A DNA stretch of 39,691 bases. It comes from an uncultured Blastococcus sp. Lineage in GTDB: Bacteria > Actinomycetota > Actinomycetes > Mycobacteriales > Geodermatophilaceae. The notes beneath the pieces are model-generated. The model had not been told where the DNA came from and made no database searches. It was given only the letters and a program-made list of their open reading frames with translations. Both the position numbers and the translations under genes were made by a program. The stretch is taken from contig CADCTN010000122.1 of the NCBI GenBank assembly GCA_902805535.1, positions 1 through 39,691 on the forward strand, read 5' to 3'. Below are positions 13,331-38,245 of the stretch, piece by piece; positions within the stretch are counted from its first letter, which is position 1, and each line of letters opens with the position of its first letter.

Positions 13331-13359
13331 GCCCCGGAGCTGCGACAGCGCTCCGGGGC
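13331..13359 (+). terminator. Second, stronger hairpin after the HbhA-like gene
   Basis: A perfect 10-bp stem, GCCCCGGAGC/GCTCCGGGGC, with a 9-nt loop. It lies between the HbhA-like gene and the DUF2516 promoter and probably ends the upstream transcript. Confidence 0.65.
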
Positions 13360-13406
13360 ACTGTCGCGTTCGGGCACTGTCGCGTTCGGGTCCTGTCGCC
13401 CTCCGG
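13359..13406. repeat. 16-bp tandem repeat upstream of the DUF2516 gene
   Basis: CACTGTCGCGTTCGGG occurs twice in tandem (13359-13374 and 13375-13390), followed by a degenerate third unit (13391-13406). The array sits between a terminator hairpin and the -10 at 13423. Confidence 0.85.
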
Positions 13407-35982: not shown

Positions 35983-37131
35983 TCAGCAGCCGGCGGGGAG
36001 CAGCAACGGCAGGCAGACGTCGAGGGGCGGCACCGGGACGACGGCCGAGGAGGGTGCGGGCGGCGCGAGCGGCGGCGGATCCGGGTTCGGCTTCGGAGTC
36101 GGCAGCGACGGGACCGGCACCCCGGGCGTCGTCGGCGCCGGCACCGTGGGCGTCGGCAGGCCGCCGGTCCCGCCGCCCTGGGGAGCGGGAACCGGCGCCG
36201 GGACGGGCGTCGGCTCGGTGGGCTGACCGGGTGTGCTGCCCTGGGGGGCGGGCGCCGGACCGGACGGCTGGCCGGCGATCGGTGCCTCCGGGTCCGGAAC
36301 GGGGCCGGGGCAGGTCGTCGCGACGGGTCCCAGTTCGTCCCTGCCGGTGACCGCGGGACCGCTCTGGCAGGACAGCGCCGCCTCGAGCTCCGTCGTGCGG
36401 ACGGCGACCTGGCCGAGGAGGTCCAGCGAGGACGTCACGGCCTGCGCCGCCTCGGCCGGGATGCCGGGCGCGAGGGCGGTCAGCTCGCCGGACTGGGCGC
36501 CGGCCCACCGGGCCAGCCGGTCCAGCGGCCCGGAGTCCTCGGTCTCGACGGCGTGCTCGGCGAGCAACGCCGCACCCTCCTGGGTCTGGTCGTCCATCGT
36601 CCGCAGCGTCTCGAGCACCAGGGCGGGGTCCGCGCCGGCCGCCGCCACCATCTCTGCCCCCGGCCTCCCGGCCGGAGAGGGGGGCAGCGCGGTGCCGCCG
36701 TCGCCGACCAGCGCCTCCAGCTCGTCGAGACGGGTGCTGGCAAAGCCCAGCAGGGTCTGGCCACGGGAGTCGCCGGCCAGGGCGAGCTGAGTCTGCTCGG
36801 TGCCACGCTTGAGCTCGTAGAGGACGTCGCCTGGCCGGGCGCCCCCGGCGACGGCCACCAGGGCGGCCAGCGCGGTGACCGTCAGGGCGGCCCCGGCCAG
36901 GCCTGCGGTCAGCCGGCTGCGCCACCGGACGGGTGCGGCGTCGACGGCGCGCACGGACAGGAGGCGCTGCAGCGTCGAGCGCGGCGCCGGCTCCGGCGTC
37001 CGGACGGCGGCCATCGCGACGACACGGGCCCGCGTGGCGGCCCGGAACCCGGGGTCCGGTGCCTCGCCGAGGGAGGGGCCCATGCCGCGCAGCCGCGCGA
37101 CGACGTCCTCCTCGCGGTCCCGCACGCTCAT
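35983..37131 (-). CDS. RsbN-like anti-sigma factor (DUF5667)
   Basis: The 382-aa product has an N-terminal cytoplasmic region (about residues 1-70; EEDVVARLRGMGPSLGEAPD then PGFRAATRARVVAMAAV), one membrane segment (about 75-96) and a DUF5667-like extracytoplasmic part (GDVLYELKRGTEQTQLALAG at about 101-120). A long Pro-rich tail follows and ends VCLPLLLPAGC. The layout and place next to a BldN-like sigma gene fit RsbN, the membrane anti-sigma factor of BldN in Streptomyces. ATG 37131 overlaps in ATGA with the stop of a 41-aa ORF. The alternative ATG 37218 would add about 29 low-complexity residues. Confidence 0.8.
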   Translation of the reverse strand: MSVRDREEDVVARLRGMGPSLGEAPDPGFRAATRARVVAMAAVRTPEPAPRSTLQRLLSVRAVDAAPVRWRSRLTAGLAGAALTVTALAALVAVAGGARPGDVLYELKRGTEQTQLALAGDSRGQTLLGFASTRLDELEALVGDGGTALPPSPAGRPGAEMVAAAGADPALVLETLRTMDDQTQEGAALLAEHAVETEDSGPLDRLARWAGAQSGELTALAPGIPAEAAQAVTSSLDLLGQVAVRTTELEAALSCQSGPAVTGRDELGPVATTCPGPVPDPEAPIAGQPSGPAPAPQGSTPGQPTEPTPVPAPVPAPQGGGTGGLPTPTVPAPTTPGVPVPSLPTPKPNPDPPPLAPPAPSSAVVPVPPLDVCLPLLLPAGC

Positions 37132-37253
37132 CCGGTCCTGCCTCCGCTCCCCGTGGACGCGGCCCGGCCCACCATCGGCCGGTCGCGCTGCACCCGATCC
37201 AACGAGGCTGCGCGGCATTCGGTTACGGCCCCGACGGCGCCCTTCCCGCTCAT
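37128..37253 (-). CDS. 41-aa ORF bridging sigma and anti-sigma genes
   Basis: This ORF begins MSGKGAVGAVTECRAASLDR and continues VQRDRPMVGRAASTGSGG before ending RTG. Its ATG overlaps the TGA of the second 6-codon ORF in the 17-bp array. Its TGA overlaps the anti-sigma ATG. No family or membrane segment is seen. It may be a real peptide, or a spacer that carries reinitiating ribosomes from the sigma gene to the anti-sigma gene. Confidence 0.35.
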   Translation of the reverse strand: MSGKGAVGAVTECRAASLDRVQRDRPMVGRAASTGSGGRTG

Positions 37254-37289
37254 CGGCCCGTCCCGCTCATCGGCCCGTCCGGCTCATCG
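37245..37289 (-). repeat. 17-bp tandem repeat forming a ladder of ATGA stop/start overlaps
   Basis: On the plus strand, CCCGCTCATCGGCCCGT occurs at 37245-37261 and 37262-37278, plus a partial unit at 37279-37289. Read on the minus strand, each unit opens with ATGAGC and ends in CCG, so every unit supplies a start for a six-codon ORF whose TGA overlaps the next ATG. The two tiny ORFs are 37287-37267 (MSRTGR) and 37270-37250 (MSGTGR). The first ATG overlaps the sigma gene stop. Confidence 0.8.
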
Positions 37290-38096
37290 CAGACCGTCGG
37301 GGAGCAGGCCGGCCAGCCGGCGGACGGCGCGGTGCTGCAGCGCCTTGATGGCCCCGTCGCGCTTGCCCATGACCTCGGCGGTCTCGGCCACCGAGAGCCC
37401 GTGCAGGAAGCGCAGGGCGAGGCATTCCTGCTGCTCGGGGCCCAGTTTGCGCATGCACTCGACCAGTTCGACGTTGGTCAGCTTCTGGACCACCGCGTCC
37501 TCGGGGCCGTCGGTGGCGGTGTCGGCGTCCCGCATGTCCGCCGTGGCCACCTCCAGCCGGTACCGGCTGCTCTTCACGTGGTCGTAGACGATGTTGCGGG
37601 CGATGGTGATCAGCCACGCGCCGACGTCGCGGCCCTGGAAGGACAGCGAGTCGATCCGGCGCAGCGCACGGACGAAGGTCTCGCTGGTCACGTCCTCGGC
37701 GGTGGTGCGGTCCCCGACGCGGTGGTAGACGTAGCGGTGGACCATGCCGACGTAGTGGTCGTAGAGCCGGCCGAACGCCTCGGCGTCGCCGTCCTGGGCG
37801 CGGCGCACCAGCTCCCAGACGTCGGGACCGTCGTCCGGCGGCGGGGGCGGCTGCACGTCCACGGGGACGCCGAGGACCTCCGTGGACCTGTCCTCGAGCG
37901 CCTCCAGCGCCACGTTGCCGTGCTCGGTGGGACCGGAGGCGGGCGCGGGCACCTCTGCGGTGCTCGGCCGGGGGCGGGGCGAGGGGCGCTCGACCGCGGC
38001 GATCTCCGAGCGCATCTCCGAGCGCGGCGCCGGCGCCGGACCCGCCGCCGGATCGGCCGCCGGCCGTCCGGTGTCCAGCGGGCGGGGAGGTGCCAT
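37284..38096 (-). CDS. BldN-like ECF sigma factor with N-terminal extension
   Basis: The 270-aa product is an ECF-type sigma factor. Region 2 (about residues 92-165) has DVWELVRRAQDGDAEAFGRL, YDHYVGMVHRYVYHRVGDRT, then AEDVTSETFVRALRRI and WLITIARNIVYDH. Region 4 (about 210-265) has LGPEQQECLALRFLHGLSVA, ETAEVMGKRDGAIKALQHRA. About 90 Pro/Ala/Arg-rich residues precede region 2, similar in length to the pro-sequence of Streptomyces BldN (about 86 residues), which is cut off to activate it. ATG 38096 follows GGAGG by 12 nt; ATG 38162 and GTG 38192 are longer options. The pairing with the downstream DUF5667 protein supports the BldN call. Confidence 0.85.
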   Translation of the reverse strand: MAPPRPLDTGRPAADPAAGPAPAPRSEMRSEIAAVERPSPRPRPSTAEVPAPASGPTEHGNVALEALEDRSTEVLGVPVDVQPPPPPDDGPDVWELVRRAQDGDAEAFGRLYDHYVGMVHRYVYHRVGDRTTAEDVTSETFVRALRRIDSLSFQGRDVGAWLITIARNIVYDHVKSSRYRLEVATADMRDADTATDGPEDAVVQKLTNVELVECMRKLGPEQQECLALRFLHGLSVAETAEVMGKRDGAIKALQHRAVRRLAGLLPDGLR

Positions 38097-38245
38097 GCCG
38101 GGTTCGGACCTCCTCGTCGACCCGCCTCGCGTGCTGCGGGGCGGCCCCCATGGTGACAACATCGCCCCGACCCGTCCACGCGACCTCGTCACGGGAGCGG
38201 CGCGGTGTCACCCGGGAGGGGGCCGGACAGGGGTCGGACGGAGAC

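Follow-up and report, generated by a model that had tools for sequence, protein, structure and literature searches.

A small open reading frame (ORF) joins the gene of a BldN-like sigma factor to that of its probable RsbN-like anti-sigma factor in Geodermatophilaceae, and we think it likely that this ORF serves as a translational bridge, kept for its frame. An unbroken chain of overlapping stop and start codons runs from the sigma gene to the anti-sigma gene at 72 of the 75 distinct family junctions with an adjacent anti-sigma gene. The junction analysed here lies in a 39,691-nt stretch (the window) from an uncultured Blastococcus-like genome whose assembly measures 3.45 Mb and is 85% complete; Blastococcus species are the nearest named relatives at this locus. 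Gene order on the minus strand is BldN-family ECF sigma gene, DUF5667 gene, HAD-family gene (Pfam, NCBIfam), with these features at the junction:

37284-38192, minus strand: ECF sigma gene, BldN family, from profile matches; 5' end uncertain, conserved domain at ORF residues 128-296
37239-37289, minus strand: 17-bp tandem array of three units (TRF), present in this genome only among 82 distinct family junctions
37284-37287, minus strand: ATGA in which the sigma stop (TGA, 37286-37284) overlaps the first small start, from sequence
37267-37287, minus strand: rung 1, encoding MSRTGR, from sequence
37250-37270, minus strand: rung 2, encoding MSGTGR, from sequence
37128-37253, minus strand: rung 3, the conserved bridge ORF, 41 codons, from sequence; 24-58 codons in 69 one-rung relatives
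37222-37227, minus strand: BldN-type -35 element CGTAAC, from the published motif, read within Ala-Val-Thr in the bridge frame
37199-37204, minus strand: -10 element CGTTGG, 17 nt from the -35, from sequence; transcription would be expected to start near 37192
37141-37145, minus strand: Shine-Dalgarno site GGAGG of the anti-sigma gene, 9 nt before its ATG, from sequence; similar sites in relatives
37128-37131, minus strand: ATGA in which the bridge stop overlaps the anti-sigma start (ATG at 37131), from sequence
35983-37131, minus strand: probable anti-sigma gene, RsbN-like, DUF5667, 382 aa, from its ORF and Pfam; DUF5667 stands at the same place in other families

The sigma protein scored 202.3 bits against TIGR02952 (cut-off 206.45), far ahead of the other NCBIfam models (91 compared). 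Its top PDB match was 6dxo_A (E 1e-56; runner-up 7.6e-20), from the S. venezuelae BldN-RsbN complex. The downstream protein scored 30.7 bits against DUF5667 (Pfam cut-off 27); a PDB search with it gave no match to the partner chain of 6dxo at E 1, the only matches being two ribosomal proteins (0.33). In a Streptomyces-like locus (L112), the downstream protein read from its GTG matches 6dxo_D from residue 1 to residue 1; the PDB listing labels that chain BldN, and we presume it to be RsbN. Because the protein of the window has no direct match to the partner chain, and RsbN is reported to diverge fast (PMC4255298, partial text), we name it RsbN-like only. By analogy with RsbN, the DUF5667 product is probably an anti-sigma factor and a putative inhibitor of the sigma factor. 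The same assembly contains a second BldN-family sigma gene, about 82% identical to that of the window, at a contig end (G000 contig C174:13613-14113, L163), possibly contamination from a related strain.

The original prediction described four ATGA junctions in a row and two tiny ORFs made from a 17-bp tandem repeat. All four junctions and every ORF coordinate of the ladder were correct to the base, and TRF found the array (3.0 copies, 94% matches, score 88, the top of 67 rows in the window). That reading missed both the conservation of the one-rung form and the BldN-type promoter motif inside it. We collected 101 family loci (L001-L101), which gave 82 distinct junctions once identical ones were removed. 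One-rung chains account for 69 of the 75 junctions with an adjacent anti-sigma gene, across spacers of 70-172 nt and with (A/G)TGA at both ends. One junction has two rungs (L049), two have three (the window and L088), and three have a broken chain (L054, L091 and L093). The stop/start overlap is present at both bridge ends in the window, and its ladder is an elaboration of the conserved one-rung bridge.

At the other seven of the 82 junctions, the sigma gene lacks an adjacent anti-sigma gene and the HAD gene follows at 81-225 nt (Pfam on five of the seven). Neither a chain (0 of 7) nor a promoter motif within 200 nt was found at these junctions, several of which are closely related, so that they do not represent seven independent events. 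The loci at which a BldN-like sigma gene stands directly next to the HAD gene are L072, L089, L097-L101 and L107 (Geodermatophilus obscurus and several Modestobacter); L107, a Modestobacter locus, falls outside the 82 by its number. A record titled Bacillus sp. AZ43 (UNVERIFIED_ORG, L035) carries a clearly Blastococcus-type locus.

The frame of the bridge has been held far more strictly than its length. For 71 family junctions, a homology hit allowed us to set the anti-sigma frame independently of the chain; 67 of them keep the bridge frame, and in 68 the chain arrives in the frame so set. A wider set of 92 junctions, which adds L102-L111 (nine of these ten from other families), gave a hit at 77 and none at 15, and 69 of the 77 keep the bridge frame. 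Counted over a sigma tree for these 71 junctions, the bridge spacer changed length 40 times and frame four times, against a mean of 22.1 frame changes and a minimum of 8 when frames were drawn at random for each length class (2,000 trials, none as low as 4). The next spacer in the same genomes, from the anti-sigma gene to the HAD gene (60 loci), changed length 47 times and frame 31 times, and a comparable bridge was found there in 0 of 59. Three of the four frame-changed junctions (the window, L049 and L088) still have an unbroken chain. The proposal that overlapping stop and start codons link the sigma gene to the anti-sigma gene is thus upheld by these junctions and by the ratio of 4 frame to 40 length changes, and the chain looks selected.

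Among 148 same-strand gene pairs, called heuristically in the window and in 400 kb of one related genome, 7 had a comparable bridge, 2 of the 7 landing on a start with a Shine-Dalgarno site. A relative contains two other candidate bridges of 26 codons, one between a cysteine-rich (CCG) domain gene and a LutB-like gene (L184:16993-19906) and one between ftsH-like and GTP cyclohydrolase I genes (L193:8304-11244).

Codon choice at both bridge ends points the same way. At 70 of the 71 homology-anchored junctions the sigma stop lies in (A/G)TGA, and A or G is the final base of the last sigma codon at all 75 junctions with an anti-sigma gene. This codon is Arg in 66 of the 75 (CGG 35, CGA 27, AGA 4, CGC 0; the other nine are not Arg), whereas the 1,641 Arg codons in the sigma gene bodies of all 82 include 732 CGC, 20 CGA and, for CGA and AGA together, 21. 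A Fisher test of last-codon against body Arg usage on all 82 gave p 1.5e-16, a nominal value because the loci share ancestry and are not independent. Of the 71 homology-anchored junctions, 65 have an A directly after the anti-sigma start codon; among the remaining six, at least four are starts that our script chose downstream of an overlapping one. Most of the anti-sigma genes end in CTGA (52 of 60), so (A/G)TGA at the sigma end is not a general stop habit there. Judged from these codons, both the start and the stop of the bridge look selected.

The peptide is another matter. Were the small ORF to encode a functional peptide that acts as a third component of the switch, its conserved position and its recurring residues VT, SL and GG would be natural; these residues are, however, the letters of the -35, the -10 and the Shine-Dalgarno site read in frame. 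We compared codon positions in 14 of the 18 bridges of 40 codons, those sharing the promoter offset. Substitutions per codon position were near-flat ahead of the -35 (0.43/0.55/0.48), from the -10 to the Shine-Dalgarno site (0.36/0.40/0.44) and at the bridge end (0.34/0.30/0.35), against 0.04/0.02/0.29 in the last 60 sigma codons. The promoter spacer segment shows a mild third-position excess (0.42/0.54/0.62), which would suit a coding peptide. Third-position GC of the bridge is 0.78 vs 0.98 and 0.94 in the two neighbour genes, its length ranges over 24-58 codons, and the 41-aa ORF of the window had no Pfam or NCBIfam match at E 0.01. By these sequence measures, the bridge peptide is neither conserved nor of coding composition, and it does not have the marks of a small protein gene. 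We rejected the small ORF as a coding peptide on its near-flat codon-position rates, non-coding-like composition and variable length, and consider a functional peptide highly improbable.

Inside the bridge, the window reads CGTAAC-N17-CGTTGG, which differs from the BldN promoter motif CGTAACN16CGTTGA (PMC2375139, partial text) by one more nucleotide in the spacer and by the last base. A strict motif, CGTAAC-N16/17-CGTTG, occurs in 53 of the 75 spacers and a loose form in 64, with 0.0 and 0.1 expected from mononucleotide shuffles; the loose form was not found in the other 11. S. venezuelae rsbN is stated to have a BldN-dependent promoter of its own (PMC4255298, partial text), and the anti-sigma gene very probably also has one of BldN type, as predicted from the motif. 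A promoter of the anti-sigma gene's own was among the findings that the original prediction had named as counting against it, and in part this is what we see: a predicted BldN-type promoter, placed within the 41-aa ORF. Since the predicted transcription start at about 37192 lies downstream of all three rung starts, the short mRNA would contain none of them. RNA folding hints that the anti-sigma Shine-Dalgarno site may be masked on the long transcript, its mean unpaired probability being 0.25 there against 0.40 on the short one (n=60); the window itself goes in the opposite direction (0.48 short, 0.63 long), and we place no weight on this model.

The rival that best explains the frame conservation is an N-terminal extension, in which the anti-sigma gene starts upstream in its own frame, so that the spacer would simply code for its first residues and the small ORF would be incidental. 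Frame conservation alone leaves room for it, because the anti-sigma frame keeps the same phase to the sigma gene and is free of stops through the spacer in 57 of 67 frame-1 junctions. An in-frame ATG or GTG lies upstream in 36 of the 67, yet one backed by a Shine-Dalgarno site in only 5 (lacking in 62), and the anti-sigma frame contains stops in 10. The window offers an in-frame ATG at 37218, which the original prediction had named as a possible anti-sigma start; it sits between the -35 and the -10, upstream of the predicted transcription start, and the closest relative has no ATG there, so we judged it unlikely and rejected it. An upstream start also fits poorly with the near-flat substitutions over codon positions, with a Shine-Dalgarno site that precedes the (A/G)TGA start, and with the match of the L112 protein to 6dxo_D from its GTG start, and it leaves unexplained the constant A or G at the end of the last sigma codon. 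We regard an upstream start as improbable. No slippery site for a -1 frameshift that would extend the sigma protein into the bridge was evident by eye.

With a translational bridge as the preferred reading, we infer translation of the rungs, reinitiation and promoter activity from sequence features. Reinitiation needs an overlap or a very short gap: a 38-nt gap lowered it by 80-90% in two E. coli gene pairs and by 100% in a third (PMC10666635, partial text). A spacer of about 100 nt with a promoter would therefore uncouple the two genes. What would make the spacer necessary is the predicted BldN-type promoter of the anti-sigma gene that lies in it, and an ORF kept for frame only, overlapping both genes, would restore the coupling. 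On a long mRNA begun upstream of the sigma gene, a ribosome would finish the sigma gene at (A/G)TGA, restart at the overlapping start, read 24-58 codons, stop at the (A/G)TGA over the anti-sigma start and restart there, so that sigma and anti-sigma synthesis would stay coupled across 70-172 nt (155 nt in the window). A short mRNA from the internal promoter would begin within the bridge, lack the bridge start and be translated through the anti-sigma gene's own Shine-Dalgarno site; given that site, part of the anti-sigma translation need not be coupled. Anti-sigma output would then keep in step with sigma on the long mRNA and be independent of it on the short one. In the Blastococcus-like genome, duplication of a 17-bp segment containing ATGA would have added two rungs and left the relay unbroken.

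If the ORF did no more than keep ribosomes on the spacer, as protection against Rho or RNases, and exact coupling were beside the point, a frame open between the sigma stop and the following gene would be favoured as well; such cover could also combine with coupling. Ribosome cover needs no stop/start overlap, yet 65 of the 71 homology-anchored anti-sigma starts are followed by A, and at 69 of the 75 junctions the bridge closes with (A/G)TGA on the anti-sigma ORF. As the whole explanation, cover seems to us quite unlikely.

The array that built the two extra rungs is a separate question from the bridge. The chain was predicted to survive whatever the repeat copy number, and 0 to 5 units in silico left it intact each time; with 0 units, one 41-codon ORF opens at the sigma ATGA. 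By reasoning, the chain survives any tandem copying of an ATGA start provided that the copied length is 0 or 2 mod 3, the 17-bp unit being the one we checked. In the closest relative, B. haudaquaticus (L003/L040), 121 nt separate the sigma stop from the anti-sigma start, 34 bp or exactly two units fewer than in the window, and removing two units in silico leaves a single 41-codon ORF between both ATGA, as in B. haudaquaticus. The units differ from one another by point changes; a simple assembly stutter is therefore unlikely, and we rejected it.

When the junctions of relatives were compared and scanned for repeats, much as the original prediction had suggested, the overlapping-codon chain was kept at most of them and the 17-bp array was not found outside the window: TRF detected the array at one of the 82 distinct family junctions, the window's own, and other, weak repeats at others. 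With the array at a single junction, in collections that held one genome per species, copy-number variation cannot be seen. The idea that repeat number tunes the sigma/anti-sigma ratio found no support, given an array confined to 1 of 82 junctions and a closest relative shorter by 34 bp.

We think it fairly probable that the array is neutral slippage that tunes nothing, tolerated because each copied segment brings its own ATGA; this concerns the array alone and is compatible with the bridge. Its restriction to one junction, the chain's survival at every copy number tested and the return to the bridge length of the closest relative on loss of two units all fit, as does the lineage of L073 (Geodermatophilus dictyosporus), where an unrelated array in the bridge likewise keeps the frame. 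Against neutrality, two added termination-reinitiation steps should reduce ribosome flow if each step is imperfect. The L073 array has a 15-bp period, which keeps the bridge frame, and lies 104-147 nt past the sigma stop (2.9 copies, 93% matches). TRF also reported a tandem array of 3.3 copies at L101, which has no anti-sigma gene, and a 16-bp tandem repeat at 13356-13399 of the window (2.8 copies, 92% matches, score 74).

Outside the family, 87 places were listed and 67 fetched, leaving out 16 further Streptomyces-like ones and four others. We set aside L162 (no callable downstream gene), L163 (own genome), and L180 and L181 (own family) and analysed 66 loci, taking the downstream frame from codon-position GC. 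The bridge frame was present at 16 of 20 loci whose sigma gene ends in (A/G)TGA and at 10 of 46 with other endings; a lone bridge bounded on each side by (A/G)TGA occurs in 13 of the 20. The four with another frame comprise L165, which runs straight into a 362-codon ORF, the two-rung L145 and L169, and L142, without a clean chain. Nine named non-family loci in L102-L111 divide into five with a single bridge and four without, the latter being sigma/anti-sigma pairs at L103, L104, L106 and L108 (Umezawaea, Lentzea and a record labelled Nocardia). Downstream proteins from other groups contained DUF5667 in 8 of 8 tested.

At 30 Streptomyces-like loci, a name we inferred, the sigma stop lies in CTGA or CTAG in 29, and frames 0, 1 and 2 occur 11, 8 and 11 times; judged by sequence, these loci, with their random frame, act as a natural negative control. 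At many of L112-L141, a downstream GTGA start closes an open frame of at least 53 codons over the promoter that is unlinked to the sigma gene. In family f16 (L167, L168, L172, L174 and L178), the sigma stop TAA forms part of a GTAAC -35-like element.

Several elements of this arrangement are known. In Streptomyces sigR-rsrA, overlapping codons likewise link the pair, coupled directly by ATGA, and the anti-sigma gene, which carries a ribosome-binding site too, can be expressed independently of the sigma gene (PMC5472188, partial text); there the overlap is direct, whereas here an ORF carries it across a 70-172-nt spacer that holds a promoter. Streptomyces bldN-rsbN shares the sigma family, the adjoining DUF5667 gene and a BldN-dependent promoter of rsbN's own (PMC4255298, partial text), but Streptomyces-like genomes lack the bridge and their frames are random. 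Coupling upstream ORFs in 5' leaders are familiar from uof-fur and tap-repA. In uof-pqsR, too, translation of a short ORF promotes that of the next gene (PMC8395346, partial text), although it lies in a 5' leader and receives ribosomes de novo rather than standing between two genes with overlaps at both ends. The axe-txe minigene resembles the bridge in that a mini-ORF and an internal promoter affect one of two antagonistic proteins and that frame and distance matter; it differs in having two codons, apart from txe, in a short-transcript leader, and the text available to us describes no relay from the upstream gene (PMC8708949, partial text).

Termination-reinitiation at overlapping genes is the same physical mechanism as proposed here, and the parts of PMC6728339 and PMC10666635 available to us contain no chain of at least two hops through an ORF kept for frame only. 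No report of an intercistronic ORF of this kind was found in the literature searched, whose scope took in few subscription papers. Direct ATGA coupling of sigma and anti-sigma genes, coupling leader ORFs and a toxin-antitoxin minigene are thus known already; the probable frame-only bridge, with its three-hop form here, would extend such translational coupling.

We lean slightly towards a broader view in which such bridges belong to a class of bacterial ORFs retained only for their frame, acting as ribosome relays that would let a promoter sit between translationally coupled genes. The inhibitor gene would then have two outputs, one coupled on the sigma mRNA and one a feedback from the sigma-driven short mRNA, and in the repeat-made three-hop relay of this genome, copy number could set the ribosome loss per hop. 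The sigma/anti-sigma ratio decides whether such a switch works, and the locus shows how coupling and an internal promoter could coexist. It offers a natural example, open to testing, of an ORF selected for its frame and not for its peptide, and it gives a rule for searching other operons: a short, non-coding-like ORF with overlapping stop and start codons at both ends and a promoter inside.
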